Assembly (NCBI GenBank): GCA_000739535.1
Contig: DF820466.1
Span: 243,050-278,142, forward strand
Source: Candidatus Vecturithrix granuli
GTDB lineage: Bacteria > Moduliflexota > Moduliflexia > Moduliflexales > Moduliflexaceae
DNA length: 35,093 nt
Direction of reading: 5' to 3'
The first letter of the stretch is position 1; each line of letters opens with the position of its first letter. This document shows positions 1,049 through 33,319 of the stretch, in pieces. The notes below the pieces were generated by a model. It saw only the letters and a list, made by a program, of their open reading frames with translations, was not told where the DNA came from and made no database searches. A program made the position numbers and the translations under genes.

Positions 1049-1148
1049 AAGAATACATTGGAACAGAAATTCTTCATAGTTCGTAGTTCTTGCTGTGAAT
1101 AAGTTATGTCCCAAACTCTAATTGGCAAAATACTATTGCACTGTTCGC

Positions 1149-1225
1149 TAAATTCTTAGGAGTGCGCCGCCGTCGGCGCAATGCGTTGATGGGGGCGACG
1201 ACCGCGTCGCACTCCTAAGAATTTA
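1149..1225. repeat. Inverted repeat with 18-bp perfect arms
   Basis: TAAATTCTTAGGAGTGCG at 1149-1166 is exactly reverse-complemented at 1208-1225. The 41-bp centre contains a further small palindrome (GCGCCGCCGTCGGCGC). The AGGAGTGCG / CGCACTCCT core recurs inside the tandem elements at 17.65-18.02 kb, so this is probably a relative of that family. It lies between the distal permease and the SDR gene. Confidence 0.8.
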
Positions 1226-1277
1226 CAGAATAATGCACTATTGTTCTGGGACAGAAATTTTTATTACTTCGGAAAAC

Positions 1278-1347
1278 TTTTACTGGCTTGGTCCTGTCGG
1301 ACAACTCAGGCTTGTCTGACAAGGTCCGACAAAACCTGTTAGTAAAA
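1278..1347. repeat. Imperfect inverted repeat downstream of the SDR gene
   Basis: TTTTACT at 1278 pairs with AGTAAAA ending at 1347, and inside these arms TGTCGGAC pairs with GTCCGACA. The arms are imperfect in between. It lies just 3' of the minus-strand SDR gene (stop near 1365) and might act as a transcript terminator or stabiliser. There is no clean T run, so I call it a repeat only. Confidence 0.55.
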
Positions 1348-1364
1348 ACCTCTATCCCAAACCA

Positions 1365-2189
1365 TTATACTCCGCCGAAGGCCGATAGACCGCCGTCAAC
1401 AATCACGGTGGTGCCGTGAACAAATTGCGCCGCATCGGAAAGCAGCCAGAGCACAGGGCCGACAAGATCCTCCGGGCGTCCCATACGCGCCATCGGAGTG
1501 TGCGCGATAATGCGCTGTCCTCGTTCGGTCAATTCGCCGGTTTCAGGATTGGTCAATAAAAAGCGATTTTGTTCCGTCAGGAAGAAGCCGGGAACTACAG
1601 CGTTGACCCTGATATTTGGCGAATATTCCTGCGAAATGTGCACCGCGAGCCATTGCGTGAAATTGGTTACCGCCGCTTTGCCGGCTGAATAGGCGACGCT
1701 GCGTGTGAGCGGTCGAAACGCGCCCATCGAAGAGATATTCAGAATATTTCCCTGTCTCTGCGCGACCATCGTTCGTCCAAACACCTGACATGTCAGAAAA
1801 GTTCCCATAAAATTCAGATCAAAGGTCTGCCGGACAGCTTCCTCCGGTAAATCGAAGAAAGAGAGCTCCTGACTGGTGGTTGCCGCTTTTTTCGCGCCGC
1901 CTGCTCCATTGATGAGAATATCAACCTTGCCAAATTTCTCCAGGGTTTGTTCAAGAAGTTGTTCTAACGAGACTTTTGAAAGCACATCCGCCTGCGCCGC
2001 AATGGCGGATCCACCAGATTGGACGATTTCGGCGACAAGCTGCTCCGCCCGCTCAGGTCGAGAATGTCCGACGAGCACGGTATGTGCGCCGCAGGCCGCT
2101 AACGCTTTACTAATCGTTCCGCACAAAATCCCGCTTCCGCCGGTAATAACAGCGACTTTTCCGGAAAAATCATAAGGATTGTTCAGCAT
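1365..2189 (-). CDS. SDR oxidoreductase, D-mannonate oxidoreductase (fructuronate reductase)-like
   Basis: NAD(P)-dependent classical short-chain dehydrogenase, about 274 residues. Visible motifs are the cofactor loop TGGSGILCG near residue 16, the NGAGG variant of NNAG, the NISS serine strand, the catalytic pair YSAGK, and a C-terminal VIVDGG. The overall sequence, including the GAxRPLTRSVAYSAGKAAV block, resembles the Bacillus YjmF type of D-mannonate oxidoreductase in hexuronate catabolism; substrate is inferred. The start at 2189 (MLNNPYDFSGK) has a good ribosome-binding site, GAAAGG, eight bases upstream; the in-frame ATG at 2255 lies in repeat DNA. It sits between two permease genes of a nucleoside transporter, flanked by repeats on both sides, so it looks like an insertion rather than part of that pathway. 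Confidence 0.85.
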   Translation of the reverse strand: MLNNPYDFSGKVAVITGGSGILCGTISKALAACGAHTVLVGHSRPERAEQLVAEIVQSGGSAIAAQADVLSKVSLEQLLEQTLEKFGKVDILINGAGGAKKAATTSQELSFFDLPEEAVRQTFDLNFMGTFLTCQVFGRTMVAQRQGNILNISSMGAFRPLTRSVAYSAGKAAVTNFTQWLAVHISQEYSPNIRVNAVVPGFFLTEQNRFLLTNPETGELTERGQRIIAHTPMARMGRPEDLVGPVLWLLSDAAQFVHGTTVIVDGGLSAFGGV

Positions 2190-2225
2190 ATTCTTATACC
2201 TTTCGTAATTACTTAGTTCATCTTT

Positions 2226-2371
2226 TCGCCGTAGGCGATAGAGTATTGTAGCCATAAGATACTCCCTTTTCTGCTTCTTTTTCGCCGTAGGCGATCCACA
2301 ACCGCTACGCGGTAGGTAGAGAGATAATGGGAACGCTTGTCATTCCTACAATACTTGAAGCACTACGTGCT
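2226..2371. repeat. Cluster of mini-palindromes with GTA/TAC centres
   Basis: Four short palindromes with a GTA or TAC centre are packed into 146 bases: TCGCCGTAGGCGA twice (2226-2238 and 2282-2294), ACCGCTACGCGGT at 2301-2313 and AGCACTACGTGCT at 2359-2371. CTACAATACT and AGTATTGTAG also form an inverted pair across the cluster. The region lies between the first permease and the SDR gene. I see no gene here. Confidence 0.6.
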
Positions 2372-2397
2372 AAATAGTTAATCTCCTTTCATTGTAT

Positions 2398-3483
2398 TTA
2401 CTTACCCCTCACCTCAGGCAGGGGTGTGATGTTTTCGTTCTCACGCCGCAACGATTGTAAATGACGTTTGACAGCATATTCACTGGCTAAGACAAACAGG
2501 ACGATCAAGCCCTGCACGACGGATGCCAGGGCGGCCGGAAGCCCGGCCATGCGCTGCATGGCATCCGCTCCCACCATCAATCCGGCAAATAGAATACTGA
2601 TCACAATCACGACCAGAGGATGGAGATACGATAGTAAGGCGATGACTATGGCGGTGTATCCATAGCCGGGCGAAATATTTTCAATCAAACGCTGATGCAC
2701 CCCGGCAATTTCGACCATCCCGGCCATTCCGGCCAAACCGCCGCTGAGAAGCATGGAAACCAGGATAATCCGACTGACGTTGATCCCGCCATATTTTGCG
2801 GCTAAGGGATTATGCCCCACCACGCGCATCTGATACCCCAGAGTCGTTTTTTTGAAAATGAAATACACAATGAACGCCGCGAGAATGCCGAGCGCAATTC
2901 CTAAATGTAAGCGGGTTTTGGTCAGCAAAATGGGCAATTTGGCCGCAGCCTGTAAGGTTTGCGATTGCGGCAGATAGCCTTGCGGATCGCGCAGTGGATG
3001 ATGAATCATGTAACTGATCAGAAAAATGGCGATGTAATTCATCATGATGGTTGTGATGATCTCGCTGACCCCAAAGCGTCCTTTGAGCCAACCCGGAATC
3101 GCCGCCCAACACCCGCCAGCCAGAAAACTCGCCAGCATCATTGCCGGAATCGCGATAACTTTGGAAGTCATGGGCGCGTAAATGCCGACAATGGCCGTCA
3201 TTAAGGCCCCGATATATAATTGACCTTCGGCCCCGATATTCCAGATCCGGGCGCTAAAGGCCACGCACATCCCTAAAGCCGCAAACAGCAAAGGCGTGGC
3301 TTTTAACAAGGTTTCGGCCAGGCTGTTCGCATTGCCAAACGCGCCGCGAAATAAGGCGCGAAAAGCGACAACCGGCTGCGCCCCGACCGCCAGAATCAGT
3401 CCGCTGCTTGCCAATAATGCCAGAATGATGGCGAGCAAAGGATACCCGAAAAGAATGAGATAACGAACAACAGCATTTTTCAT
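2398..3483 (-). CDS. Nucleoside ABC transporter permease (YufP/NupP type)
   Basis: Inner-membrane permease, BPD_transp_2 family, 361 residues, with an N-terminal anchor and 8-10 predicted spans. Family signatures include LLFAALGMCVAFSARIWNIG followed by AEGQLYIGAL, the conserved GFGVSEIITTIMMNYIA-like block, and LPAALASVVQGLIVLFVLAS near the end. The start ATG (3481-3483) overlaps the ATPase stop in an ATGA arrangement, so the two are translationally coupled. With the downstream permease it should form the membrane channel for nucleoside uptake, powered by the double ATPase. Family assignment is firm; the exact nucleoside is not. Confidence 0.88.
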   Translation of the reverse strand: MKNAVVRYLILFGYPLLAIILALLASSGLILAVGAQPVVAFRALFRGAFGNANSLAETLLKATPLLFAALGMCVAFSARIWNIGAEGQLYIGALMTAIVGIYAPMTSKVIAIPAMMLASFLAGGCWAAIPGWLKGRFGVSEIITTIMMNYIAIFLISYMIHHPLRDPQGYLPQSQTLQAAAKLPILLTKTRLHLGIALGILAAFIVYFIFKKTTLGYQMRVVGHNPLAAKYGGINVSRIILVSMLLSGGLAGMAGMVEIAGVHQRLIENISPGYGYTAIVIALLSYLHPLVVIVISILFAGLMVGADAMQRMAGLPAALASVVQGLIVLFVLASEYAVKRHLQSLRRENENITPLPEVRGK

Positions 3484-5033
3484 GTCTGTGCAGCTCCCGC
3501 CATCATTAAACCTATAGTCTCCCGATCCGCTTTTTCAGCAGGAACAATCCCGACAATTCTGCCCTGATACATGACCGCAATCCGATCGCTCAGGGCAAAA
3601 ATTTCATCAAGCTCGGTTGAAATTAACAGAATAGCAACTCCGCGCTCCCTTTCGGCGAGCAGTTGGCGATGGATGAATTCGGTTGAGCCAATATCCACGC
3701 CGCGCGTCGGTTGAATCGCCAATAAGACAGTGGGGTTCCGATCTAACTCACGCCCGACCACAAATTTTTGCTGATTTCCTCCTGATAATTCATGAATAAT
3801 CACATTGGTATCTTTGGCCCTGACATCATAGGTCATGAGTAAATTTTGGGTATAGTGGTGTGTCGGTTTTTTCTGCAACAACGCATGCTTCGAGAAGGGG
3901 GGACGAAAGAAAGAACCGAGCATGGCGTTTTCCTGCAAAGACAAATTCATGACAATGCCCATATCCTGACGTTTTTCAGGGATATGAGACACTCCAGCCT
4001 TTGTCAAACATCGCGGCGGCCAGGCGGCGATCTCCTGTCCGTGCAAGAAAATTTTGCCGCTGGTAGGCGGACACAAACCGGCTAAAATTTCGGCCAGTTC
4101 CGATTGTCCATTCCCCGAAACCCCGGCAATCCCCAGAATTTCTCCGCTATGAAGCGAAAAGGAGACGTTCTGCACCAGGGGTACCTGCTTTTCAGGCACA
4201 TAATAGAGCTGTTCGACGCGCAAGACTTCAGGTCCCTGAACTTGCCGCTTTTTCTCTAAACGTTCCAATATGCCTCGTCCCACCATCTGATACGCTAATT
4301 CGCGCTGCGTGGTTGCGGCGGCATTCACTGTCTGGACCACGCGGCCTCCGCGCAAGACTGTGGCGCGGTCGCTGGATTCAAGCACTTCATGGAGCTTATG
4401 GGTAATGAAAATCACCGACATGCCCTGTTGCACCAGGGTTCGTAAAATTTTGAAAAAATCCTGGGTTTCCTGGGGGGTTAAGACCGATGTTGGCTCGTCA
4501 AGAATCAGGAGTTCCGCCTTGCGGTATAAGGCTTTGATGATTTCCACACGCTGACGTTCGCCAACCGCTAAATGTTCAACTTTGGCCCTGGGACTCACGG
4601 TCAGACCGAATTGATCTGACAAATCCCGGATTTTTTGTTCGGCTCTTCTCAGATCAAGTATATTCTGAGTGAGACGCTGCCAATAAGCATGGAAGCCATG
4701 AGAAGGCCCGTGATCTTGCGGAGCTTTCATGCCCAGAATAATATTTTCCGTGACCGTAAGCGAAGGGATGAGCATGAAATGTTGGTGCACCATCCCGATG
4801 CCGCAGGCAATGGCATCCCTGGGAGAATGAAACTGCACCGACGCGCCTTTCCAGAAGATGTCGCCCTCATCCGGGTGATACAGGCCGTACAGGATATTCA
4901 TCAACGTGGTTTTGCCAGCCCCATTTTCACCGACAATGGCATGAATTTCCCCTTGCTTCACGTCGAGCGTAATATGATCATTGGCCAGAATACCGGGAAA
5001 GCGTTTTGTAATATTCTTCAGTTGCAGCAGCAT
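3480..5033 (-). CDS. Nucleoside ABC transporter ATP-binding protein (YufO/NupO type)
   Basis: Cytoplasmic ATPase of 517 residues with two fused nucleotide-binding domains. Domain 1 has Walker A GENGAGKTT (about residue 36), the signature-like LAVGERQRVEI, Walker B LLILDEPTSVL and switch histidine in FITHKL. Domain 2 has the degenerate GVSGNGQSEL P-loop, a full LSGGNQQK signature and VLLAIQPTRGVD in place of a canonical Walker B. This one-good-one-degenerate layout is typical of the sugar/nucleoside CUT2-BMP ATPases. The AIQPTRG block, with alanine-isoleucine-glutamine instead of DEP, is a hallmark of the nucleoside branch. It is the first gene of the transporter and overlaps the following permease by 4 bp. 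No BMP lipoprotein gene is adjacent. Confidence 0.9.
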   Translation of the reverse strand: MLLQLKNITKRFPGILANDHITLDVKQGEIHAIVGENGAGKTTLMNILYGLYHPDEGDIFWKGASVQFHSPRDAIACGIGMVHQHFMLIPSLTVTENIILGMKAPQDHGPSHGFHAYWQRLTQNILDLRRAEQKIRDLSDQFGLTVSPRAKVEHLAVGERQRVEIIKALYRKAELLILDEPTSVLTPQETQDFFKILRTLVQQGMSVIFITHKLHEVLESSDRATVLRGGRVVQTVNAAATTQRELAYQMVGRGILERLEKKRQVQGPEVLRVEQLYYVPEKQVPLVQNVSFSLHSGEILGIAGVSGNGQSELAEILAGLCPPTSGKIFLHGQEIAAWPPRCLTKAGVSHIPEKRQDMGIVMNLSLQENAMLGSFFRPPFSKHALLQKKPTHHYTQNLLMTYDVRAKDTNVIIHELSGGNQQKFVVGRELDRNPTVLLAIQPTRGVDIGSTEFIHRQLLAERERGVAILLISTELDEIFALSDRIAVMYQGRIVGIVPAEKADRETIGLMMAGAAQT

Positions 5034-11647: not shown

Positions 11648-12155
11648 AAATAAAACCCCAGTATCCTTTCAAACAATCATCCCTTTTGGGTTTTCGTGTC
11701 ACGACACTTTTCTTTCGCGTTTGATATATGAGCGTAAAGCAGGTTGGTTTGTCAAGAGGTTTCTGTTGAAAGCATGAGAGTTGGGCAGGTAACAGCCATT
11801 CATCTCCTACTATCGAGGTTTCTGAGAAGCACTATAAAACAACATAAAATACTTGACAGATATTTATACCGAATATTATGTTTTCAGACGTTTTAGCAAT
11901 TCGACAGGATAATATTGTTTCTTCCTTGCCTGTTATGAGATATTTCTCTCCCTGGGCAGAGCCGGGATGTATGGTCAAAGCCTCATCCTGTCAAATGATC
12001 ATGTTTCAGCTTTTGAATTGTTGCGAATAATTCATTCATGCCGGTACTGTGGAAGCCCAGAAGATAAATCTTTACCTGAGAGGAGAGAGAGTTCTTCGGT
12101 GAGACTCTGCCAGATGGAAGAGAGCATCTATCGAAAAACTTTCATCATGAGATTT
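11648..12155. other. Divergent intergenic region with weak promoter candidate
   Basis: About 500 bases between the TIR-TPR gene and the plus-strand sugar operon. TTGACA at 11853-11858 with TATTAT at 11874-11879 (15-base spacing) is a weak sigma-70-like candidate for the operon. The reading frame of the next gene stays open upstream to 11967, but that segment (rich in C, S and R) does not resemble the isomerase family. I see no other gene or RNA. Confidence 0.4.
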
Positions 12156-13022
12156 ATGAAAATCGGTTTTCATACTGATGCCTTCAATTCATCGGTCTTT
12201 AGCTTTGAAAAATGCCTGCAATGGGCTCAGAAGAATGATGTCCACTACATTGAATGCGGCGTGCTTGATGGCGTGAGCTGGATTCATGGATTAGGCTATT
12301 TTCCTCATGTTGCGCTGTATGAAGATCCTCTGCTTCTACGGCAGAAAATGGCGACCTACGGGGTCAAATTCTCTCAGATTGATGCGGCGTTCCCGCTTTC
12401 CGGGAGAGAAGGAGCTATGTTAGGAGTGCCGTATGTCTTGAAATCGATTCCCTGGGCCAAACATGCCGGATGCGACCATATTGCGACAACCGATGGGTTA
12501 TTGAAACCCGAAGGATTGAGCGACGCACAAGCCTTAGATGCAATGAAAAGCAGCTATGAGCAGATTGTCAAGGTGGCTGAAGCGTATCATATTTGTATAA
12601 ATATTGAGATTCATGGCTACTTTACCACGAACCCGGCGATGGTTGAAAAAATGCTGAAATTTGTTGACAGCAAGTATTTCGGTCTGAATTTTGATACCGG
12701 GAATTCATTTATTGCCGGGCAAGATCCGGTTGATTTTTGTCGTCGTTTTATCAAACATATTAAGCATGTGCATATCAAGGATGTTTCCCAGTCGTTAGCA
12801 GATCAGTGTCGCGGCAAGGAAACCGGAATCGGCATTAGTCATTGCGCGATTGGGGATGGCGTGAATGCTGAGAATATTACGACCTGTTTGAAAATGTTGC
12901 GGGATTATGGGTATGACGGAGTCTTAAGTATGGAAACTGAAGGACAGGGAGGGCCTCTGATCGAAAAGTCATTGGCATGGTTGCGTAAAACGTTGCAGGA
13001 ATTGGATATTCCTGCGGAATAA
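12156..13022 (+). CDS. Sugar phosphate isomerase/epimerase family TIM barrel
   Basis: AP-endonuclease-2/xylose isomerase-like TIM barrel of about 288 residues. Metal-binding positions are visible in order: Glu in YIECGVLDG, Glu in NIEIHGYF, Asp in NFDTGNSF, His pair in HVHIKDVS and Glu in LSMETEGQG. The family interconverts sugars, keto-sugars or inositol derivatives; the substrate cannot be read from sequence. I begin at ATG 12156 (MKIGFHTDAF), where family members start; ATG 12147 is equally possible, and neither has a strong ribosome-binding site. It opens a CUT2 sugar transport operon, 32 bases before the binding-protein gene, so it likely acts on the imported sugar. Confidence 0.8.
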   Translation: MKIGFHTDAFNSSVFSFEKCLQWAQKNDVHYIECGVLDGVSWIHGLGYFPHVALYEDPLLLRQKMATYGVKFSQIDAAFPLSGREGAMLGVPYVLKSIPWAKHAGCDHIATTDGLLKPEGLSDAQALDAMKSSYEQIVKVAEAYHICINIEIHGYFTTNPAMVEKMLKFVDSKYFGLNFDTGNSFIAGQDPVDFCRRFIKHIKHVHIKDVSQSLADQCRGKETGIGISHCAIGDGVNAENITTCLKMLRDYGYDGVLSMETEGQGGPLIEKSLAWLRKTLQELDIPAE

Positions 13023-13054
13023 CTATTAACATAATATGTATGAGGAGACGGGTT

Positions 13055-14080
13055 ATGGTTCGCACGAAATATTTACGGGTAGGTCTTGCTTTTGTTTTGA
13101 TCCTGGCCTTTGTTGCTCATGTCGGAGTTGCATTAGCTGCAGAGAAAAAACTCACATACGGGTATGTGACGCCAGGGCCAGACACATGGTATAAAAAAGA
13201 CGTTGAAGGGTTTGTCTATGCGGCCGAGCGCGCCGGAGTTGAGATGATCGTGCTCAATTCGGATTATGATGTTGAAAAAGAAATTGCCAATATCGAATCT
13301 CTGATTACGCAGGGCGTTGACGGAATGTGCGTGTTTACGTTTAACGAAAGCGGCGCGAATATCGCGGCCAAAAAGGCTGCGGAAGCAGGGATTCCGCTTG
13401 TTGTCACTGATAATGTCGGTCAAGTGCTGAAACAAGATGCCGATATCGTGGCGTGCATTGATTTTGATTGGCAAGCCATGGGGAATGATTGGGCCGAATA
13501 TATCGCAGAACATTTTCCGGGCGAAAAGATCGCGATGGTCACCGGATTGTTTGAGCACGTTCCGGTTCAGATGTATCGCAGCACCTTTGAACCGCGTGTA
13601 AAAGAACTTGGGAAAAATGAAATTGTCGCCATTCGAGATGGCAAATATGATCCGAGCGTCGCCGTCAATCAGGCGCAAGATTTAATTGAGTCCGGACTTG
13701 ATTTCTCAGTGTTATTCGTCGGCAATGAGGATATGGCGGCCGCAATTATTCGTATGCTGAAAAGTCGAGACCTGCTCAATAACCCCATTAAAGTGATCGC
13801 CCAGAATGGTTCTCCGGTTGGAATCCCTCTTGTGAAGGATGGGAGTTTGACATATACAATCAGTAGTTCGCCCGGGTGGGAAGGCATGATCTCCTTTCTC
13901 GCGCTTCATGCCTATGTAACAGGAAAGAAAACCGAGTTGAATCAACAGATTATGCTGCCGATCACCCCGGTCAACATGACCACGATTGACGATAAAAAGA
14001 AAGTGGTGCCCTGGGAAATTGATCCGGTATGGCTCGAACTGACAGCGGAATATTTCCCGGAATATGAGGGATTGTATTAA
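13055..14080 (+). CDS. CUT2 sugar ABC transporter substrate-binding protein
   Basis: Periplasmic binding protein of about 341 residues (Peripla_BP_4, ribose type). A signal peptide covers residues 1-28 (RTKYLRVGLAFVLILAFVAH core, cleavage after ALA). Typical lobes follow: LTYGYVTPGP at the start, an IESLITQGVDGMCVF strand-helix and IPLVVTDNVG. The start ATG at 13055 has TGAGGAGA ahead of it; an in-frame ATG at 13040 would place five charged residues before the signal. It delivers sugar to the permease at 15800. A strong hairpin follows the stop, compatible with higher expression of this gene than of the downstream ATPase. Confidence 0.88.
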   Translation: MVRTKYLRVGLAFVLILAFVAHVGVALAAEKKLTYGYVTPGPDTWYKKDVEGFVYAAERAGVEMIVLNSDYDVEKEIANIESLITQGVDGMCVFTFNESGANIAAKKAAEAGIPLVVTDNVGQVLKQDADIVACIDFDWQAMGNDWAEYIAEHFPGEKIAMVTGLFEHVPVQMYRSTFEPRVKELGKNEIVAIRDGKYDPSVAVNQAQDLIESGLDFSVLFVGNEDMAAAIIRMLKSRDLLNNPIKVIAQNGSPVGIPLVKDGSLTYTISSSPGWEGMISFLALHAYVTGKKTELNQQIMLPITPVNMTTIDDKKKVVPWEIDPVWLELTAEYFPEYEGLY

Positions 14081-14115
14081 GTCCATTCGGTAAATACGCG
14101 CCTCCCTGTCTTGAC

Positions 14116-14147
14116 AAATAGCTCTAAACCTCGGTTTGGGGCTATTT
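14116..14147 (+). promoter_or_regulatory. Intercistronic hairpin after the binding-protein gene
   Basis: AAATAGCTCTAAAC (14116-14129) pairs with GTTTGGGGCTATTT (14134-14147) as RNA, a 14-bp stem with two G-U pairs and a CUCG tetraloop. No long U run follows, so it is more likely an mRNA stabiliser or partial attenuator than a full terminator. Similar hairpins after binding-protein genes let cells make more binding protein than ATPase; that role is inferred here. Confidence 0.65.
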
Positions 14148-14178
14148 ATCCTTATTCTCGACGTTTTAGGTGAAAGTT

Positions 14179-15669
14179 ATGGGTGAGTTACTGCTGCATG
14201 TTGAAGGTGTCACCAAAATTTACGGATCTCAAAAAGCTCTTGATGATGTCTTCTTTGAGTTGTATGCCGGAGAAGTGCATTGCCTGGTCGGTGAAAATGG
14301 CGCGGGGAAATCCACATTAATCAAAATTTTATCAGGAGCAATCAGCCCTGATGCAGGCACAATCCATATCCTTGGCAAACAGAAGCAGTTTTTGACGCCG
14401 AGGGAAGCTATTGCCCTGGGCATTTCTACGATTTATCAGGATGTTGAGCTTATTGACTCGCTGACAGTGGCTGACAACATCTTCTTAGGAAACGAGCGGC
14501 GAAGCAAAATTCCCGGAGTGGTGGATTCGAATACGCAATTTCGTAAGGCCCGGGAAATCATGGAAAAATTAAATATTACGATTGATGAAAGAGCATTGGT
14601 CGAACACCTGTCCGCGGCCCAGAAGCAGACTTTACAAATTGTTAAAGCGTTGCATAGCGATGCCAAAATTTTGATTATGGACGAACCAACGAGTTCGTTA
14701 GGCTTAGAAGAAACCCGGGCGCTCATGCAGTTAGTCAAGGAACTGGCAGCTAAAGGCATCGGTATTATTTATATTTCGCATTATTTGGAAGAAATTTTTG
14801 AGATTGGCGACAGGATCACGATCCTGAAAGATGGACGGTATATTGGCACCCATGACGTTGCCCAGGTTGATGTGAACACGGTGATCCGCAATATGGTGGG
14901 GCGGGATGCTTCGATCTTTTTTTCCCGAGAACCGGTTGAGATCGGAGAAAAACAATTCGAAGTCAACCATTTTTCCTATAAAGATGTGGTCAAGGATGTC
15001 AGTTTTTACGTCCGCAAAGGTGAAGTCTTCGGAATCGGAGGTCTGGTGGGTTCCGGACGGACTGAACTGGCAGAATTGATCGTTGGGATCGAGAGGAGTG
15101 AAGGAGGAAATATGTTTCTCAACGGCAAAATGCTTGACATTCATTCCCCTCAAGATGCGATTAAACAGGGAATTTGCCTGATCACGGAAGATCGGAAAAA
15201 ATTTGGCCTATTTGGAACGCGATCTGTCAGGGAAAATATTGCCCTTGTCCATAATGAAATTGCTCCAACTCCTTTTTTGAATCTTGCGCAAGAGGGCACC
15301 CTTGTCAATTCTATGATTCAAAAGTTACAGATCGCTGCATCGAGCCTGGAGCAAAATATCCTGCATCTCAGCGGAGGCAACCAGCAAAAGACGGTGATTG
15401 CCCGATTATTATTGAGTGAAGCGACCGTCTTTATTTTTGACGAACCGACAAAAGGCGTTGATATAGGTGCAAAGGAAGAGATTTATAAATTGCTCGTACA
15501 ATTAGCGCAAAACGGCAAGAGCATTATTATGATTTCTTCGGATATGCCTGAACTCATTTCGTTGAGCGACCGAATCGGAGTCATGCGACATGGAGAACTG
15601 ACGCACATCTTACCTGCTCATGCTGCGAAAGAAGAAGAGTTGATCAAATATTTTGTCGGAGTTCAGTAG
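14179..15669 (+). CDS. CUT2 sugar ABC transporter ATP-binding protein (RbsA/MglA-like)
   Basis: Cytoplasmic double ATPase of about 496 residues. Domain 1 has Walker A GENGAGKST, Walker B LIMDEPTSSLG and switch histidine YISHYL, but its signature is degenerate (LSAAQKQTLQIV instead of LSxGQ). Domain 2 has the GLVGSGRTEL loop, a full LSGGNQQKTVIA signature and FIFDEPTKGVDIGAK. This asymmetry is usual in CUT2 ATPases. I choose ATG 14179, which has AGGTGA 5 bases upstream, over GTG 14170. It powers uptake of the sugar bound by the 13055 protein. Confidence 0.88.
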   Translation: MGELLLHVEGVTKIYGSQKALDDVFFELYAGEVHCLVGENGAGKSTLIKILSGAISPDAGTIHILGKQKQFLTPREAIALGISTIYQDVELIDSLTVADNIFLGNERRSKIPGVVDSNTQFRKAREIMEKLNITIDERALVEHLSAAQKQTLQIVKALHSDAKILIMDEPTSSLGLEETRALMQLVKELAAKGIGIIYISHYLEEIFEIGDRITILKDGRYIGTHDVAQVDVNTVIRNMVGRDASIFFSREPVEIGEKQFEVNHFSYKDVVKDVSFYVRKGEVFGIGGLVGSGRTELAELIVGIERSEGGNMFLNGKMLDIHSPQDAIKQGICLITEDRKKFGLFGTRSVRENIALVHNEIAPTPFLNLAQEGTLVNSMIQKLQIAASSLEQNILHLSGGNQQKTVIARLLLSEATVFIFDEPTKGVDIGAKEEIYKLLVQLAQNGKSIIMISSDMPELISLSDRIGVMRHGELTHILPAHAAKEEELIKYFVGVQ

Positions 15670-15728
15670 GGATTCCGGGTTACATGAAAAGTGTTTTGAT
15701 CCGTTTGGATTGAGTGTGTCGAATCACC

Positions 15729-15767
15729 CCGGCGTTCCCCTCCGAATGTCAGGGGAACGGAGGCCGG
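15729..15767 (+). promoter_or_regulatory. Intercistronic hairpin between ATPase and permease genes
   Basis: CGTTCCCCT at 15733-15741 is exactly complementary to AGGGGAACG at 15751-15759. CCGG and CCGG extend the stem on the outside after a small bulge. No U tract follows. It fills the 130-base gap between two genes of one operon and could be a processing or stability element, or another dispersed repeat. Confidence 0.5.
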
Positions 15768-15799
15768 ATATTCTCATAAAATCGTCGTAGAGGGGAACA

Positions 15800-16741
15800 A
15801 TGAAATTTGAAAAAAAGAACCTGCTAAATAACCAATGGTTTTTTCTGCTGCTGGTTGTCATTGGGTTGTCCGTCATTACCGGGATTATCAACCCGAAATA
15901 CTTTTATTTGCGCAATGTCATCAATATTCTCGAACAGATTTCCGTGTTAGGACTGGTTGCTTCAGGGGCAACAATCTTGATGATCTCCGGAAATTTTGAT
16001 ATTTCGGTAGGGGCAACTATCGGCCTGGCTTCATGTATTATGGCGATCTTTATGAAAAATGATATGCCCAGTGTGCCTGCCGTAAGTATTGGGGTGTGTG
16101 TCGCCATTTTGTGCTGCTTTTTTGTCGGCCTGAATTCGATTCTGTTTCGAGCGCCCTCTTTCATTATTTCGCTGGCCTGTATCGGTATTTTTAAGGGCAT
16201 CGCCTTAGCCCTGACCGAAGGGACGATCCAGACAATCTACGGCAAATTTGAAATGATAGGGGCCTTGCGGATTTTTAATGTGATTCCTTTATTATTCATC
16301 ATCAGCCTGTTGGGATATATTGCCGTGCATATCATTCTTACTTATACTCGCTTGGGAAGAAGAGTCTATGCGATTGGCAGTAACCGGCAGGCAGCCTATA
16401 GATCCGGGATTGCCGTCAATAAGAATACTTTGATCTTTTTTACGCTCAATGGTTTGCTGGTTGGAATAGCCGCCATGCTTTTATTGTCAAGAGTTGGCGC
16501 TGTGCAGCCTTCCACGGGAAGCGGCATTGAACTGCAAGCCATTGGCGCCGTGGTCATCGGTGGAGCTCCGATGACCGGCGGAAAAGGAAAAATTATCGGA
16601 ACATTTTTTGGCGTCTTGCTGATGGGCGTGCTTTCAAATGTGTTGAATATGTTACGCGTGAATCCATATTTTCAAGATATTACGTTTGGAGCCTTGATTA
16701 TCGTATCCCTCGCCATCACGGCGTTTAGTCAGAGGGATTAA
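15800..16741 (+). CDS. CUT2 sugar ABC transporter permease (RbsC-like)
   Basis: Inner-membrane permease, BPD_transp_2 family, 313 residues with 8-10 predicted spans. The family motif appears as MISGNFDISVGA (about residue 73), followed by the RLGRRVYAIGSNRQAAYRSG cytoplasmic loop (about 187) and the AIGAVVIGGAPMTGGKG segment (about 250). The ATG is preceded by GAGGGGAAC. It completes the binding protein, ATPase and permease set of the first CUT2 system. Confidence 0.88.
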   Translation: MKFEKKNLLNNQWFFLLLVVIGLSVITGIINPKYFYLRNVINILEQISVLGLVASGATILMISGNFDISVGATIGLASCIMAIFMKNDMPSVPAVSIGVCVAILCCFFVGLNSILFRAPSFIISLACIGIFKGIALALTEGTIQTIYGKFEMIGALRIFNVIPLLFIISLLGYIAVHIILTYTRLGRRVYAIGSNRQAAYRSGIAVNKNTLIFFTLNGLLVGIAAMLLLSRVGAVQPSTGSGIELQAIGAVVIGGAPMTGGKGKIIGTFFGVLLMGVLSNVLNMLRVNPYFQDITFGALIIVSLAITAFSQRD

Positions 16742-23091: not shown

Positions 23092-23187
23092 CATGTCACG
23101 CTAAACCTGCAAATTGGCTACTGGTAAAGGGGAGCAGGCGGCTCCCCTTGTTATAAGGCAGGACCGTTCAATTTTCCGTATTTTCAT

Positions 23188-23241
23188 CATCTCGACTCCG
23201 CTCGATGACCGGAACACCGCACGTCGAGCGAAGTTGAGACG
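23188..23241. repeat. CTCGACTCCGCTCG hairpin repeat
   Basis: CATCTCGACTCCGCTCGATG (23188-23207) pairs imperfectly with CGTCGAGCGAAGTTGAGACG (23222-23241). The TCTCGACTCCGCTCG-x-x-GACCGG string also occurs at 19-40 and inside the 22685-22799 element, so this is a third, smaller relative. It lies in the leader between the binding-protein remnant and the first permease. Confidence 0.7.
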
Positions 23242-23302
23242 CTATTTCTGGCAAGAATTGAACAGCCTTGGCTATAAGGATAGTTCATCCAGAGACTTCA
23301 GC

Positions 23303-24160
23303 ATGAAAATAAAAGACCGTTACATGTGGATTCCTTTCGTGCTTCCGGGGGTTTTGTTGTTGGTGTTGGTGCTGGGTTTTCCTGCTGTCACAAGCATTTT
23401 ATACAGCTTCGAACCTGAAGGTGATCGCGGCAGCTATACCCTTGCCAACTACATCAATCTGCTGCAAGATCCCTTTTTTAAAACAACCTTCTGGAATACA
23501 GGGGTGTTCGTATTTTTCAGCGTCGCCAGCCATCTGGTTCTCGGATTGGCGGTTGCTCTGGTCTTAAACACGGCCCTGCCTGCCAAGCCGCTGTTTCGTA
23601 TTATTGCCTTGCTTCCCTGGGTGGTTCCCGATGTAGTGGCCGGGATTATCTGGAAGTGGATGTACAATCCCCTTTACGGCGCGATCAATGATCTCCTTCT
23701 GAGAACCGGCCTTATTCATAACCCGGTCGAATGGCTGACAAAACCGCAATTGGCTTTGTTTAGCGTAATCCTTGTGAATCTCTGGCGCGGATTTCCTTTT
23801 GTCATGCTGATTCTGTTGGCAGGGCTGCAATCCATTCCCAACTACCTGTATGAGGCTGCCGCCATTGACGGAGCCTCGGCGCGGCAGAGCTTTTTTCACA
23901 TCACCATCCCGGGTTTGCGGAAAATGCTCGTGGTGGCCTTAGCCCTGGATACCGTGTGGGAGGTGCGGCGATTCGGTCTGATCCAGGCCATGACGCAGGG
24001 TGGCCCCGGGGTATTGACCGAGGTGCTCTCTACCTATACGTACAAACAATATTTTAAATTTTTTCGATTTGAGTATGCCTCGGCGATCTCTGTCGTGATG
24101 ACGCTTGTGCTGTTATTGGTGAGTCTCCCGTATATCTGGATGATCAGTCAGGAAGAATGA
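23303..24160 (+). CDS. CUT1 sugar ABC transporter permease (UgpA/MalF-like)
   Basis: Inner-membrane permease of about 285 residues with six predicted spans (BPD_transp_1). The ATPase-contact EAA loop is clear: YEAAAIDGASARQSFFHITI followed by PGL (about residue 195). The start ATG at 23303 (MKIKDRYMWIPFVLPG) gives a normal family N-terminus; the frame is open further upstream only through repeat DNA. It overlaps the next permease by 4 bp (ATGA). No ATPase gene is adjacent, which is common because CUT1 permeases often share one MsmK/UgpC ATPase. Confidence 0.87.
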   Translation: MKIKDRYMWIPFVLPGVLLLVLVLGFPAVTSILYSFEPEGDRGSYTLANYINLLQDPFFKTTFWNTGVFVFFSVASHLVLGLAVALVLNTALPAKPLFRIIALLPWVVPDVVAGIIWKWMYNPLYGAINDLLLRTGLIHNPVEWLTKPQLALFSVILVNLWRGFPFVMLILLAGLQSIPNYLYEAAAIDGASARQSFFHITIPGLRKMLVVALALDTVWEVRRFGLIQAMTQGGPGVLTEVLSTYTYKQYFKFFRFEYASAISVVMTLVLLLVSLPYIWMISQEE

Positions 24161-24984
24161 AAAAGGTATTTTGGAAAATTAGCGTATGGGGTTTCCTGCT
24201 CGTGGTCTGTTTTTATTGCCTGCTGCCCTTTGCCTGGATGTTTTCCACCTCGCTCAAAACCGAAACAGAGGCGTTCCGGATTCCCCCGACCTGGATTCCC
24301 CTTCAACCGACGATAGATAGCTATATCGGGATTTGGGTCAGAAAAAATTTCGGCGTCTATTTTTTCAATAGCACCGCCATCTCGCTGGCCACCGCTTTGC
24401 TTTCGACCTTTGTGGGCGGAATGGCCGGCTATGGGTTTTCCCGCTTTGTTTTCAAAGGCCGGCGTTTTCTGATCGGGTTCTTTTTAGCCACGCAAATGCT
24501 GCCCGGAGTATTGCTGGTTGGCCCCTATTTCAAAGTGCTCACCAAAATTGGTCTCTATGATACCCGCACCGGTCTGATTATCGCATTTCTGACTATTTGC
24601 TTGCCTTTCTCGACCTGGATGATGAAAGGGTTTATTGATAAGGTTCCGGTCGAACTTGATCAGTCGGCCATGATTGATGGGTGTTCCAGAATAGGAGTGT
24701 TTTTTAAAATTCTCGCGCCGGTCATTGCCCCTGGAATGGTCGCCACGATTCTTTTTGCGTTTCTGCTGGCTTGGGGCGATCTGCTCTGGGCGTTGTGTTT
24801 GACCACCAGTGAATCCATGATCACTGTGACCCTGGGTATTGCCAGAACCGTAGGAGAGTTCCGCATCATCTGGCCGATGCTCATGGCAGGTTCCCTGGTT
24901 GGAGGGATGCCGGCCATTATTCTCTACATCTTTTTACAGCGGCTTCTGGTGCAGGGGTTGACCGCCGGGGCTGTTAAGGAGTGA
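24157..24984 (+). CDS. CUT1 sugar ABC transporter permease (UgpE/MalG-like)
   Basis: Inner-membrane permease of 275 residues with six predicted spans. Family marks are the N-terminal LLPFAWMFSTSLKTETEAF, and the EAA loop in the form LDQSAMIDGCSRIGVFFKIL followed by APVIAPG. The first EAA alanine is replaced (QSA for EAA), a tolerated change in this branch. Its ATG overlaps the stop of the partner permease. Together they form the channel for a sugar or polyol that cannot be named because the binding protein is truncated. Confidence 0.87.
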   Translation: MKKVFWKISVWGFLLVVCFYCLLPFAWMFSTSLKTETEAFRIPPTWIPLQPTIDSYIGIWVRKNFGVYFFNSTAISLATALLSTFVGGMAGYGFSRFVFKGRRFLIGFFLATQMLPGVLLVGPYFKVLTKIGLYDTRTGLIIAFLTICLPFSTWMMKGFIDKVPVELDQSAMIDGCSRIGVFFKILAPVIAPGMVATILFAFLLAWGDLLWALCLTTSESMITVTLGIARTVGEFRIIWPMLMAGSLVGGMPAIILYIFLQRLLVQGLTAGAVKE

Positions 24985-25749: not shown

Positions 25750-25801
25750 TATAACAAGCATAACTTGAAAGAACAGGAGTAATTACGGTTTCACCTGGCA
25801 A

Positions 25802-25874
25802 CACTACAACGGATGAAAGAATGGAACGGATTATACGGTTCATTATCCGTTTAATTCTCAAATCCGTTGTAGTG
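25802..25874. repeat. CACTACAACG inverted-repeat element, copy 1
   Basis: CACTACAACGGAT at 25802-25814 is exactly complementary to ATCCGTTGTAGTG at 25862-25874. The centre holds a second inverted pair around GGAACGGATTATACGG / TTCATTATCCG. A related copy with the same CACTACAACG end is at 28902-28984. It fills the gap before the NapH-like gene. No coding capacity. Confidence 0.75.
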
Positions 25875-27950: not shown

Positions 27951-28892
27951 ATGAAACAATTTGGAGTGTTGATCATTGTGATGAGCGTTCTCTTGAGCGC
28001 AACGGCAATTTTTGCCCAGGACTTGTTTGAAATAGCAGTTTCGTTTCCGGGATCGGTCGAATTTTTTAGCGTCCAGAAGAAAGGTATGGATCAGGCGGCC
28101 GAGGAGTTTGGCGTGAAGCTGACCTATGGCGACGCAGAATGGGATGCCGGCAAACAATTGTCGCAAGTTGAAAATTTTGTGGCTAAAGGGATTGATTTGC
28201 TCCTACTCTGCACGGTGGATAATCAAGCCTTAATCCCGGCGGTTGATATTTGCAAAGAGGCCGGCGTGCCGTTAATGACCTTTACCAACGCCCTGGGACC
28301 GAATCCGGATGGTCAATTCGAGGGCGTGCTCTCCTTCATCGGCGTGAATGAAGTTGAATTAGGACGTTTATTGGGAAGAATGGCGGAAAAAATCCTGGAC
28401 AACAAGGATGCGAATATTGTGTTAATCGAAGGAACTCCGGGCACGCCTCCTCAACGTATGAGAACCCAGGGATTTAAAGAGATCGTTGATGCGCATTCGA
28501 ATTGGAAGATTGTCTATAGTCAGGCGATTCCGGGCTGGACCAAAGAAGGATCATTGGCGGCAATGGAAGCCTTTTTACAAACCGGACAGACGGTTGATCT
28601 GGTGGCAACCCATTGGCATGCAGCCGCAACGGCCGCAGCGACTGCGCTCGAAGAAGCCAATTATGAGGGAGATGTTGGTATTATCGGTCTGGAATTTACC
28701 AAAGAACTCATTCCTATTATCAAGGAAGGGAAAGTGGATATGACCACCGATTATTCAATTTCTGAATCTGGCTATAAAGCAGTGGAAACTGCGGTAAAAT
28801 ATCTCAAAGGAGAACAAGTTCCCTCGTTTGTCGAAATTACGCCGATAATCATTGATCAGAAGAATGTTGATGAACACGAACCGGAATTGTAG
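27951..28892 (+). CDS. CUT2 sugar ABC transporter substrate-binding protein, second system
   Basis: Periplasmic binding protein of about 313 residues (Peripla_BP_4). The signal peptide covers residues 1-22 (KQFGVLIIVMSVLLSATAIF, cleavage after FAQ or AIFA). The mature part starts DLFEIAVSFPGSVEFF and has the DAEWDAGKQLSQVENFVAKG helix, then the LLLLCTVDNQALIPAV and VLIEGTPGTPPQRMRTQGF blocks of ribose/galactose-type proteins. The start ATG has CCAGGAGGATTTT ahead of it. It heads an operon with a TIM-barrel enzyme, an ATPase and a permease. It is only distantly similar to the 13055 protein, so a different sugar is expected. Confidence 0.88.
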   Translation: MKQFGVLIIVMSVLLSATAIFAQDLFEIAVSFPGSVEFFSVQKKGMDQAAEEFGVKLTYGDAEWDAGKQLSQVENFVAKGIDLLLLCTVDNQALIPAVDICKEAGVPLMTFTNALGPNPDGQFEGVLSFIGVNEVELGRLLGRMAEKILDNKDANIVLIEGTPGTPPQRMRTQGFKEIVDAHSNWKIVYSQAIPGWTKEGSLAAMEAFLQTGQTVDLVATHWHAAATAAATALEEANYEGDVGIIGLEFTKELIPIIKEGKVDMTTDYSISESGYKAVETAVKYLKGEQVPSFVEITPIIIDQKNVDEHEPEL

Positions 28893-28901
28893 TATCCAGT
28901 G

Positions 28902-28984
28902 AACACTACAACGAATTGAAGAATTCAACGAATTGAAGCATTCAATAAAGAAATTCGTTCCATTCTTTAATTCGTTGTAGTGTT
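28902..28984. repeat. CACTACAACG inverted-repeat element, copy 2
   Basis: AACACTACAACGAATT at 28902-28917 is exactly complementary to AATTCGTTGTAGTGTT at 28969-28984. The interior has ACGAATTGAAG in direct repetition. It shares the CACTACAACG terminus with the copy at 25802-25874. It lies between the binding-protein gene and the TIM-barrel gene of one operon, so it may also shape mRNA processing. Confidence 0.75.
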
Positions 28985-29047
28985 TTCGCATGTTTCACAG
29001 GCGATTTCTCAAATCCGAACGGTCACGAAATATTTCTATAATTACTT

Positions 29048-30271
29048 ATGCACATTCATACACAACTTTTTTTAGGACATCAGGAACAACAAGAATTCTC
29101 AGCGCATGAGGTCAGACAAAAAATTCTCAACGCCAAAAAATTCGCGAATATTCAACGACTGATGATCTGGACTGATGATCGCCCGGAAACGTACCAACCC
29201 CTCGTTGCCTTGTGTCGCGAACATGAGATTCAACCCTATCTCTGGTTCCCGGTTCTGGCCGATATTCCGGGTTATCCCTCTCAAGAGCAGATGATGGTGT
29301 TGAATCATGAGCAGCAGCGAGGTTATGGACATCTCGGCCGTTGGGAAAAGCTTGGCGCAGGGGAAGAACAATTTCTTTTCCTGTGTCCCAATACACGCCC
29401 GGCGCTCGCTGATGTCTTTGAAATTTACAAAACCCTGGTTGGACAGGTTGATTTTGATGGCGTTTTTCTGGATCGTGTCCGTTACCCGTCGTGCGCCAAT
29501 GGATTTGAATCGCTGTTTACTTGTTTTTGCGATGCTTGCCAGCAGCGATTTGCCGAACTCTACGACGAACCCCTCGATGAATATATACCCGGGATTCGGG
29601 TCTTGCTTGACCGATTACAGCAGTTTAACGATCACGATCTTGAGCAATGTATGCAGCTCGATGACTTGTGGGGTTGCGGTGATTTGGATCAGTTTTTTGT
29701 GTTTCGCGCTCACAACATTACCTGTGCGGTTAAAATATTTACAGAATATGCCGGTTTACAGGGAAAACAGATCGGTTTGGATCTCTTTACCCCGTCTCTG
29801 TCGCCTTTTGTGTCGCAAGATTACCGTTTACTCAGCGCATGCTGCGATTGGATCAAGCCCATGAGTTACTGTCATGCCATTGGCCCGGCCGGGGTACCGT
29901 TAGAGATTGCGTGCCTGCTCAGGGCATTACACAGTCTGTGTCCGAAGGTCAGTGACTCACAGCGTATCGCCTTTTGCGCGCGGATTCTGAATGTACCGCT
30001 GCCAGAAACCGAAGAATTGATTTTGCAACGCGGAATCCCCGAAACCTTTGTCGCGCACGAACTGGAAAAAATTCGTAGTTTTGCGCTGCCGGAAAAAATC
30101 GAAATTTATCCTGGCGTCGAAATGGTAAAACATCCGCATTTTGACTTGAATATTGATCAACAGATTTTAGAGAAGTATCTGGCAGCCATTGCGGGCAAGG
30201 TCGACGGATTTGTGGCTTCCTGGAACCTGCTGTATATTCCGGATGAACATTGGAAGCTCATGGAGCAATGA
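29048..30271 (+). CDS. Putative glycoside hydrolase-like TIM-barrel protein
   Basis: Protein of 407 residues without a signal peptide, so probably cytoplasmic. The central FDGVFLDRVRYPS (about residue 138) and the CFCDACQQRF block (about 159) are features of uncharacterised glycosyl-hydrolase-like (GHL/COG1649-type) TIM barrels. WIKPMSYCHAIGP (about 276) would be a later barrel strand. Catalytic acids cannot be assigned by eye; Asp of LDRVRYP is the best candidate. It lies between a binding protein and an ATPase and overlaps the ATPase region's first ATG (ATGA), so it probably degrades or modifies the imported sugar. There is no clear ribosome-binding site at 29048. It is not a family I can name with confidence. 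Confidence 0.65.
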   Translation: MHIHTQLFLGHQEQQEFSAHEVRQKILNAKKFANIQRLMIWTDDRPETYQPLVALCREHEIQPYLWFPVLADIPGYPSQEQMMVLNHEQQRGYGHLGRWEKLGAGEEQFLFLCPNTRPALADVFEIYKTLVGQVDFDGVFLDRVRYPSCANGFESLFTCFCDACQQRFAELYDEPLDEYIPGIRVLLDRLQQFNDHDLEQCMQLDDLWGCGDLDQFFVFRAHNITCAVKIFTEYAGLQGKQIGLDLFTPSLSPFVSQDYRLLSACCDWIKPMSYCHAIGPAGVPLEIACLLRALHSLCPKVSDSQRIAFCARILNVPLPETEELILQRGIPETFVAHELEKIRSFALPEKIEIYPGVEMVKHPHFDLNIDQQILEKYLAAIAGKVDGFVASWNLLYIPDEHWKLMEQ

Positions 30272-30288
30272 GTGAAAAAAGGAACAGC

Positions 30289-31794
30289 ATGAAGATGACA
30301 GAACCGATTCTGCACATCGAAAATGTCAGTAAATCCTTTCCCGGCGTACAAGCGTTAGATCAGATCAATCTTGATATCCGGCAATCTGAGGTGCATGCCC
30401 TGCTCGGGGAAAATGGGGCCGGCAAATCAACCCTGGTCAAAATCATTGTCGGGGCCTACGCAAAAGATGCCGGACGGATCATTTTCAACGGCCAGCCCTG
30501 TGAATTTATCGCGCCTGCGCAAGCATATCAACGCGGAATGAGCATCATTTATCAGGAAACCAGCCTGATTCCTCAATTAACCGTGCTGGAAAATATCTTT
30601 CTCGGCATGGAATATACGCATTCATGTCTGGGAATAATCGACAACAAGCGCATTATAAGCGAATATGATGTGGTGTGTGAAAAATTCGGGTTTCATTTTC
30701 ATCGCAATGTACTCGCACGCAATTTAAGTGTTGCCGAACAGAAAATGGTGGAAATCCTCAAAGCGATGGTGCATCAGGCGTCGTTCATTATTATGGATGA
30801 ACCGACCGATTCGCTCACAGATACAGAAATCCGCCATCTGTTTGAGATTATTCGCGATCTGAAACATCATCAAATTACGGTGCTCTATATCACTCATTAT
30901 TTGGAAGAAGTGTTTGAAATTGCCGACCGATTAACCGTGTTGCGGGATGGCAAAAAAGTTGATACCGTCAAAACTTCCGATGTCGAGATACGCGATATTG
31001 TACGCATGATGGTCGGACAGGAGTTGAGCAGAGCAGAGCATTCTGCCGGACGCCAGGAACATACTCCTGAAGTCATCCGGGTGGAACAATTCACGCGCAA
31101 ACCCGCGTTTGCCAATATTTCATTTCAGGCTCATCAGGGAGAAATTCTGGGGATTACCGGCGTGATCGGCGCCGGAAAAAGCGAACTGGCTCGTGCGATT
31201 TTCGGCGCAGATCGTCGTGATAGCGGACAGGTCTATCTCGACGGCCGGCCCTGCGATATCCATTCACCCCAGGAAGCGGTCAGACATGGCATAGGTATGC
31301 TTCCGGAAGATCGCAAACGGTCAGGACTCCTGCTCAATCACGAGGTCTATAAAAATCTGACGATTGCGGCCCTGGATCGCTTTATCAAACACCAGATCCT
31401 GAGCAAAGTCAAGGAACTCAGCGCGACTGAAGACATGGTCAAGCAACTCGATATTAAAATCACAAGCCCCTATCAATCAGTGAAATACCTGAGCGGCGGT
31501 AATCAGCAAAAGATCGTGATTGGGAAATGGCTCACAGCGCGTCCTCGCATCTTGATTATGGATGAACCTACGCGGGGCATTGATGTCGGTTCCAAAAATG
31601 AAGTATATAAGATTATGAAACGATTGGCCGAGGCCAGCACTTGTATTCTCTTTATTTCTTCGGAAGTCCCGGAAATTATCGAAATTTCGGATCGGATTCT
31701 CATCATGAAAAAAGGACGAATAGCGTCTGAATATCGGCGCGGCGTGACGCAGAGAGAACTGATGCATGCAATTTTAGAAGGTGAGAAAGAGTAA
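30289..31794 (+). CDS. CUT2 sugar ABC transporter ATP-binding protein, second system
   Basis: Cytoplasmic double ATPase of about 501 residues. Domain 1 has Walker A GENGAGKST, the degenerate signature LSVAEQKMVEI, Walker B IIMDEPTDSLT and YITHYL. Domain 2 has GVIGAGKSEL, LSGGNQQKIVIG and LIMDEPTRGIDVGSK. I take ATG 30289, which has AAAAGGA 5 bases upstream. The ATG at 30268 overlaps the preceding stop (ATGA) with GGAG only 2 bases away and would add seven residues. The gene is in the operon of the 27951 binding protein. Confidence 0.88.
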   Translation: MKMTEPILHIENVSKSFPGVQALDQINLDIRQSEVHALLGENGAGKSTLVKIIVGAYAKDAGRIIFNGQPCEFIAPAQAYQRGMSIIYQETSLIPQLTVLENIFLGMEYTHSCLGIIDNKRIISEYDVVCEKFGFHFHRNVLARNLSVAEQKMVEILKAMVHQASFIIMDEPTDSLTDTEIRHLFEIIRDLKHHQITVLYITHYLEEVFEIADRLTVLRDGKKVDTVKTSDVEIRDIVRMMVGQELSRAEHSAGRQEHTPEVIRVEQFTRKPAFANISFQAHQGEILGITGVIGAGKSELARAIFGADRRDSGQVYLDGRPCDIHSPQEAVRHGIGMLPEDRKRSGLLLNHEVYKNLTIAALDRFIKHQILSKVKELSATEDMVKQLDIKITSPYQSVKYLSGGNQQKIVIGKWLTARPRILIMDEPTRGIDVGSKNEVYKIMKRLAEASTCILFISSEVPEIIEISDRILIMKKGRIASEYRRGVTQRELMHAILEGEKE

Positions 31795-31876
31795 AAATAC
31801 CGATTTGACTGGCATAGAAACTGGGGTTTTAGGGAAATTTTAGCATACGCTTAGTATATATCGGAGGAAGACACTT

Positions 31877-32827
31877 GTGATACAAAAATTTTTTGCACAA
31901 GGTAACGGATTCTCGTTCAAAAAATATGGGATGATGATCGGGTTCATCATGATCAGCATCATTATTTCGCTGATTACGCCGAATTTCTTGACGGCTCGCA
32001 ACATTCTTAATATGTTGCGTCAGAGTTCAATCGTGGGGATTATGGCGATTGGCAGTACCTTTGTGATTATCGGAGGAGGTTTTGATATTTCCGTCGGTTC
32101 GCTGCTGGCATTGACAGCCGCGATGTCGCTCGGTTTACAACAACATATCCCCTGGTATCTGGCTATCGTGGTTGTGCTTCTGGTTGGAGCCTTTGCCGGC
32201 CTGATCAATGGCATTTTGACGGCCAAAATCAAAATTGTGGCAATTATCACGACCCTGGGTACCATGACCATTTTGCGTGGAGCCACCTATTTATATACCG
32301 GCGGCTATCCGATTCTGGGCAGTTCTGAGTATTTCAAATTTATCGGGTCTGGGTACATTGGTTTTCTCCCCTTTCCGATTCTTCTGTTATTGCTTATGGT
32401 GATCTTCTGGCAATTTATCCTGCGTAAAACGAAATTAGGGCGTTATGCCTGTGCTATAGGAGGAAACAAAGAAGCGGCTCGCTTATCCGGCGTGCCGGTA
32501 GATTTTTATCATATCATGACCTTTGTGATTGGTGGTCTGATGGCAGCGATGTCTGGCATTATTTACGCCGCTCGTCTCAATTCCGCCACTCCCCTGGCCG
32601 GGCAGGGCTATGAACTGGATGCGATCGCCTCGACCGTGATCGGCGGAACCAGTGTGTCTGGAGGCGAAGGCAGTGTGATTGGCACGCTTATCGGCGTGTT
32701 ATTGCTCAATGTGGTCAACAATATGTTCAACCTGCTTGGCATTCAGGTGCATATCCAGTACGTCGTGAAAGGCATCATTATTTTGGCTGTCGTCGGAGTA
32801 GATTCTTATTCGAAATTTAAAGAATAA
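31877..32827 (+). CDS. CUT2 sugar ABC transporter permease, second system
   Basis: Inner-membrane permease, BPD_transp_2 family, 316 residues with 8-10 spans. The motif appears as IIGGGFDISVGSLLAL (about residue 69), then the TKLGRYACAIGGNKEAARLS loop (about 188) and the DAIASTVIGGTSVSGGEGSV segment (about 252). The start is GTG at 31877 after CGGAGGAAG. It is the last gene of the second CUT2 operon. Confidence 0.87.
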   Translation: MIQKFFAQGNGFSFKKYGMMIGFIMISIIISLITPNFLTARNILNMLRQSSIVGIMAIGSTFVIIGGGFDISVGSLLALTAAMSLGLQQHIPWYLAIVVVLLVGAFAGLINGILTAKIKIVAIITTLGTMTILRGATYLYTGGYPILGSSEYFKFIGSGYIGFLPFPILLLLLMVIFWQFILRKTKLGRYACAIGGNKEAARLSGVPVDFYHIMTFVIGGLMAAMSGIIYAARLNSATPLAGQGYELDAIASTVIGGTSVSGGEGSVIGTLIGVLLLNVVNNMFNLLGIQVHIQYVVKGIIILAVVGVDSYSKFKE

Positions 32828-32911: not shown

Positions 32912-33319
32912 CTATGCCAAACTCAATACGACCCCAAGGATGAGGAACGCAAGGAACACACTCTGAACAGAGTGGACAATGACACCCATCCAAGTGCTGC
33001 GGAAGTGCCAGCTCGGAAATGCGTAAAGGAAGACACTGGCGATGACAGACCCCGGAATACCCCAGGGCTGGTGAACGTGCCAGAAGCCATGGAGCACGCC
33101 GTTTGCTACCCAGTTCCACCTGCCGAAGACCCCCTCCATCTTGGGAAGCAACACTCCTCGAAAGAAAAACTCCTCTCCCAGGATCGTATTGAAGACAGCG
33201 AAAACCACAAACAAGCCAAAGAACCACCAGGCACCCACCAGCCCGTGCAGGATCTTTTCCGATTCAAAGATTGCGTTAAAGCTATAGCCGGAAGGCTCGG
33301 CAAGAAATAGGTGCTCCAC
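32912..33319 (-). pseudogene. C-terminal part of a CPBP (CAAX protease-like) membrane protease
   Basis: The 135 readable residues hold all CPBP motifs: GEEFFFRG (EExxxR), VLHGFWHVH and a late HSVQS within hydrophobic segments, ending naturally at 32912. The N-terminal half expected of the family (another 100 or more residues with spans) is absent. In the adjacent frame just upstream, FLKEKNEGHEWST (33310-33350) looks coding and could join near 33300-33310 by a frameshift. Before that no homologous sequence is evident. CPBP proteins process prenylated or signal proteins and some give bacteriocin self-immunity. It is probably a broken gene. Confidence 0.6.

Follow-up and report, generated by a model that had tools for sequence, protein, structure and literature searches.

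Cwp19, a studied member of the glycosidase-like barrel superfamily, is an exported GHL10 enzyme that acts on peptidoglycan and has lytic transglycosylase activity (PMC6016235). PgaB, whose C-terminal domain belongs to GHL13, is also exported, and is an enzyme of a biofilm polymer. GH42 enzymes, which share the barrel fold, are also active on small galactosides. Among importers, the CUT2 systems for ribose, xylose and arabinose combine three component families, including a two-domain ATPase and a single permease. An importer accompanied by an intracellular processing enzyme is an already known kind of system, and in the variant of it which we describe below, CUT2-type importers are linked to a GHL/GH42-like barrel with four cysteines.

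The locus lies in a 35,093-nt stretch of the Candidatus Vecturithrix granuli genome; this whole stretch is referred to here as the window. The preliminary description had listed four genes, and all of them were found on the plus strand: a CUT2 substrate-binding protein with a signal peptide (27951..28892), a 407-aa cytoplasmic glycosidase-like TIM-barrel protein (29048..30271), a CUT2 ATPase with two ABC domains (30268..31794) and a CUT2 permease with a GTG start (31877..32827), the only permease gene of the operon. The barrel had been placed between the importer subunits; it is indeed inside the operon, and its precise position is between the binding-protein and ATPase genes. The barrel stop codon and the most likely ATPase start share a four-base ATGA overlap (30268-30271), therefore the barrel gene belongs to the operon and is probably translated together with the ATPase. 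Neither a sugar kinase nor any further catabolic gene was found in the operon. The gap of 155 bp that separates the binding-protein gene from the barrel gene contains a dispersed inverted repeat forming a hairpin of about 30 bp (28902..28984), recognised by folding and by its other genome copies; the folding energy of the gap is -46.9 kcal/mol (z -7.8). We infer that this hairpin may raise the production of the binding protein above that of the other products of the operon.

Based on these and the following observations, we suggest, as the probable explanation, that the operon encodes a CUT2-type importer together with a cytoplasmic enzyme whose substrate is the compound taken up. The binding protein would capture a small sugar-like ligand other than ribose, the permease, probably as a homodimer, would import it with the two-domain ATPase, and the barrel, made in parallel with the latter, would cleave or rearrange it in the cytoplasm as a hydrolase or lyase. 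The acidic active site would lie at the C-terminal end of the barrel, with D142 on strand 4 and perhaps E358 on strand 7, and a metal site of four cysteines would stabilise the structure.

The class of the importer is clear from Pfam, as the binding protein matches Peripla_BP_4 (E 2.2e-53), the ATPase matches ABC_tran in two stretches (E 6.3e-55) and the permease matches BPD_transp_2 (E 4.1e-50). The binding protein starts with a clear signal peptide (MKQFGVLIIVMSVLLSATAIFAQ), and the nearest sequence in the PDB is that of 2ioy, of the ribose-binding type (E 1.9e-33). In NCBIfam, the best matches of the importer genes are the ribose, xylose and arabinose CUT2 equivalogs, but none of the named substrate equivalogs reaches its cut-off (e.g. 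RbsB, 101.8 of 337 bits). As every one of them scores well below the cut-off, annotation cannot give the ligand. In the alignment with 2ioy, the phenylalanine pair and a ribose-contacting arginine are kept; at the positions of D89, R90, N190, F214, D215 and Q235, which we take to be the canonical contacts of ribose-binding proteins, the window protein has T, N, W, L, E and Y, respectively. The replacement of most of these contacts is evidence against ribose and argues for a ligand of a different shape. Thus, the window system shares its component families and layout with the named CUT2 importers, but differs from them in its scores, in its ribose contacts and in that its operon includes the gene of an unrelated enzyme. 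The import of a disaccharide, glycoside or nucleoside-like compound, as proposed earlier, does not follow from the binding-protein residues, which argue against ribose but do not point to a disaccharide. As a precedent for oligosaccharide binding by a CUT2-type protein, CbpD of Clostridium thermocellum was also considered, and was rejected, as it is reported to bind no cellodextrins and to have a pocket sized for a monosaccharide (PMC9601137).

The barrel protein carries the LDRVRYPS strand (FDGVFLDRVRYPS, residues 136-148) and the CxCxxC block (CFCDAC, residues 159-164) that had been noted before, and the reported lack of an export signal was borne out, as it has no N-terminal hydrophobic stretch and its maximal 12-residue Kyte-Doolittle mean is 0.22, versus 3.04 for the binding protein. 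No transmembrane segment was found in it. The protein itself matches no Pfam family up to E 1, no NCBIfam model and no PDB sequence. It does not reach the gathering score of GHL10 (PF02638), and members of its family match PF13200 weakly, e.g. the relative L015, which matches DUF4015 with an E-value of 7e-4. The gene family is thus without a name in the libraries searched. A six-member family profile, however, leads to signal-peptide-bearing proteins in many genomes, and these wider relatives match GHL10, DUF4015 and GHL6, several of them above the cut-off. Searched against the PDB, a 31-member profile (A3) finds Cwp19 (1.2e-11) and PgaB (4.5e-9). The profile of the small A2 set alone finds no PDB match and profile A5 finds PgaB alone, at 0.004, therefore the strongest PDB matches come via the wider alignment.

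The AlphaFold model of the window barrel, built with five sequences, is poor (pLDDT 48.5), and its Foldseek matches, headed by PgaB, were left out of the evidence. The model of L015 is of fair confidence (pTM 0.81) and has eight barrel strands. Its best superposition is on GH42 1kwg (VIA-align Z 21.5, 300 residues, 3.5 A), followed by PgaB (Z 20.2) and Cwp19 (Z 19.7). Together with the profile matches to Cwp19 and PgaB, these superpositions make the assignment of the barrel to the GHL10/DUF4015/GHL13 glycosidase-like superfamily well supported at the superfamily level, in agreement with the fold proposed previously, with the structural part of the argument resting on the relative. With the GHL10, DUF4015 and GHL6 families (PF02638, PF13200, PF14871) the barrel shares the profile superfamily, the DGxxLDxxRYP strand followed by the CxCxxC block and the barrel fold, but it matches none of these Pfam models. 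Cwp19 differs in having a signal peptide and a peptidoglycan substrate, in contrast to a cytoplasmic protein of an importer operon, and PgaB belongs to an unrelated pathway. The likeness to GH42 is one of fold and not of membership. The window barrel is far smaller, lacks the Asn-Glu acid/base motif of strand 4 and has no Pfam GH42 match.

Four cysteines, C113 (codon 29384..29386), C159, C161 and C164 (block C159-F-C161-D-A-C164, 29522..29539), are invariant in all 27 aligned sequences of four clades, the importer-linked set included, and are kept in five of the six outgroup sequences. Their spacing, C113-x45-C159-x-C161-x2-C164, is close to that of the GH42 zinc site in 1kwg, which we take to be formed by Cys 106, 150, 152 and 155 (C-x43-C-x-C-x2-C), and for this reason the cysteines are candidates for a structural metal site, which we consider likely. 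D142 (codon 29471..29473) is the residue with which strand 4 ends (105-111 in the model of L015), and its position is acidic in every aligned member: it is D, but E in the rhizobial/haloarchaeal type. E358 (codon 30119..30121), a candidate second acid, falls on strand 7 when aligned with the model of L015; it is E in the window protein, its paralogue and L089, and is replaced in most other members.

Glycosidases have their acids arranged on strands 4 and 7. As D142 and E358 fall on these strands, the window clade could have an acid pair, and a glycosidase reaction is plausible. The acidic catalytic pair expected of such an enzyme is therefore only partly in evidence: the strand-4 position is always acidic, but its strand-7 partner is kept in the window clade only, and no second acid is conserved family-wide in the alignment of the four clades and the outgroup. 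The catalytic Glu pair of GH42, with Asn-Glu on strand 4 and a second Glu on strand 7, was not found, strand 4 having Leu-Asp142 instead. It is in this light that we weigh the proposal of the preliminary description, a narrower form of the explanation given above, that the barrel is a true cytoplasmic glycosidase, releasing sugars from a disaccharide or small glycoside brought in by the importer. The superfamily with its GH42-like fold and the candidate pair D142/E358 speak for it, as do the FGGY sugar kinases beside two relatives (L113 and L117), which favour a sugar product. However, the barrel itself matches no glycoside hydrolase family model, the strand-7 acid is not retained throughout the family, the GH42-type Asn-Glu is missing from strand 4, and Cwp19 works outside the cell on peptidoglycan. 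On balance, we regard a true glycosidase as possible, but somewhat doubtful.

The window barrel used alone as a query found nothing in 84,980 genomes. An alignment of two members found four Bacillota relatives from rumen or digester; the same genome also holds a paralogue, 27-29% identical to the window barrel. No relative of the barrel was found in viral contigs, and the barrel was absent from three other genomes of the phylum that were examined. A plasmid search (tblastn) with the window barrel gave no record, and the same search with L086 gave 127; the rhizobial proteins are remote relatives, connected through L086 and a core profile.

Among the loci examined, the order binding protein - barrel - ATPase - permease occurs only in the window, so that the four-gene arrangement itself is not conserved. 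What recurs, in other phyla and in distant taxa including archaea, is the linkage of the barrel to a sugar-type importer. In five Bacillota genomes (L086, L087, L114, L115, L116), where the neighbouring genes were named by reading and from BLAST comparisons with those of the window, the barrel comes last, after permease, binding protein and ATPase in that order; wherever the contig extends far enough, a ROK repressor lies upstream. In L113, an FGGY kinase overlapping the barrel gene is followed by the barrel, binding protein, ATPase and two permeases, and in L085 a CUT1 importer adjoins the barrel. The paralogue (L013:5895-10036) lies directly downstream of an importer of the taurine/nitrate type, similar to SsuABC/TauABC (SsuB/SsuC/NMT1-like). 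The Rhizobium and Aminobacter loci combine the barrel, which is annotated there as ‘hypothetical protein’, with a CUT2 importer and with genes for Amidohydro_2 (fuconolactonase-like/lactonase-like), D-ser_dehydrat/Ala_racemase_N (a PLP enzyme similar to D-hydroxyaspartate aldolase), RidA and a DoeB-like deacylase; at least 80% of the rhizobial locus is present in 111 plasmid records. In Rhizobium etli p42c, the counterpart of the barrel is RHE_RS23740 and that of the binding protein is RHE_RS23700. In Haloarcula, a CUT1 importer is followed by the barrel and then by MR/MLE enolase-superfamily, SDR and RidA genes, and the operon also includes a creatininase gene. Two further barrels were observed: in Rhizobium tumorigenes 932 (L098:8001-9188) the barrel is present without the CUT2 locus seen in other rhizobia, and in L117 (6315-8668) an FGGY kinase is followed by an N-terminally truncated barrel of the rhizobial type, perhaps a decaying copy.

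The rhizobial partner genes favour an amide or amino compound as the substrate in those loci, and they raise a second narrower form of the importer-plus-enzyme explanation, in which the target of the barrel is not an O-glycosidic bond but an amide, N-acyl amino acid, amino sugar or lactone-like conjugate. The Haloarcula operon, with its enolase-superfamily, SDR, RidA and creatininase genes, points in the same direction. Yet these partners go with a different clade, which has E in place of D142, and are absent from the window operon, and we therefore consider chemistry of this kind unlikely for the window protein.

The tree groups the window barrel, the paralogue and L089 (99/96), apart from the importer-linked group of Bacillota and rhizobia. 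The importer label needs about seven changes on this tree; a single inherited operon was therefore rejected, and the association of barrel and importer has, on this tree, arisen more than once. Such a repeated association fits a shared biochemical role, from which a substrate in common with the window operon does not follow. The several label changes also speak for a rival reading, in which the barrel is non-catalytic, a purely regulatory partner, or present in the operon by chance in a genome rich in importers. Of the main genes in the window, about 27 in number, 11 read as importer genes, and with the region so packed, the adjacency of barrel and importer in this genome is, taken alone, weak evidence. 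Moreover, L089 has no importer nearby and the related clades L015-L018 and L076-L084 mostly do not adjoin importers. Against this stand the ATGA overlap within the operon, the linkage in at least three separate arrangements (Bacillota, Rhizobiaceae and haloarchaea) and the retention of the acidic residue and the four cysteines, so that a chance or non-catalytic partner seems improbable to us.

Returning to an importer with its own cytoplasmic enzyme, we tentatively propose a broader hypothesis, about which we are more sceptical than about the window operon itself: that bacteria and haloarchaea have a widespread, undescribed class of uptake pathways, with a cytoplasmic GHL/GH42-like barrel of four cysteines that processes the cargo of CUT2 or CUT1 importers. 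Both the enzyme family and its substrate would then be new. A literature search on the rhizobial locus and on importer-linked GHL proteins found nothing. Members of the barrel family lie beside a sugar importer on more than a hundred rhizobial plasmids, labelled ‘hypothetical protein’ where annotated. With a substrate for the family, a function could be assigned to these loci as well as to the window operon, and CUT2 systems would be shown to be able to supply a cytoplasmic enzyme dedicated to processing their cargo.

Several other features of the window were recorded. A second CUT2 operon (binding protein, ATPase and permease; 11967-16741) is preceded by a gene whose product, by reading, resembles a protein of the sugar epimerase/isomerase type; this would be another combination of importer and barrel enzyme, with the enzyme from a different family. 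At 110-5033, a set of two permeases and a two-domain ATPase resembles nucleoside-type importers, and at 23114-24984 a CUT1 permease pair, with no binding-protein gene seen adjoining, is followed by an SDR gene. A short and apparently incomplete minus-strand frame (32912-33319) reads as a fragment of a membrane protease of the CPBP type. The repeat upstream of the barrel gene belongs to a dispersed palindromic family of about 80 bp, with copies at 28902-28984 and about 25800-25874 and roughly 20 or more others elsewhere in the genome; the copy at 28902 forms a long hairpin and is REP- or MITE-like.
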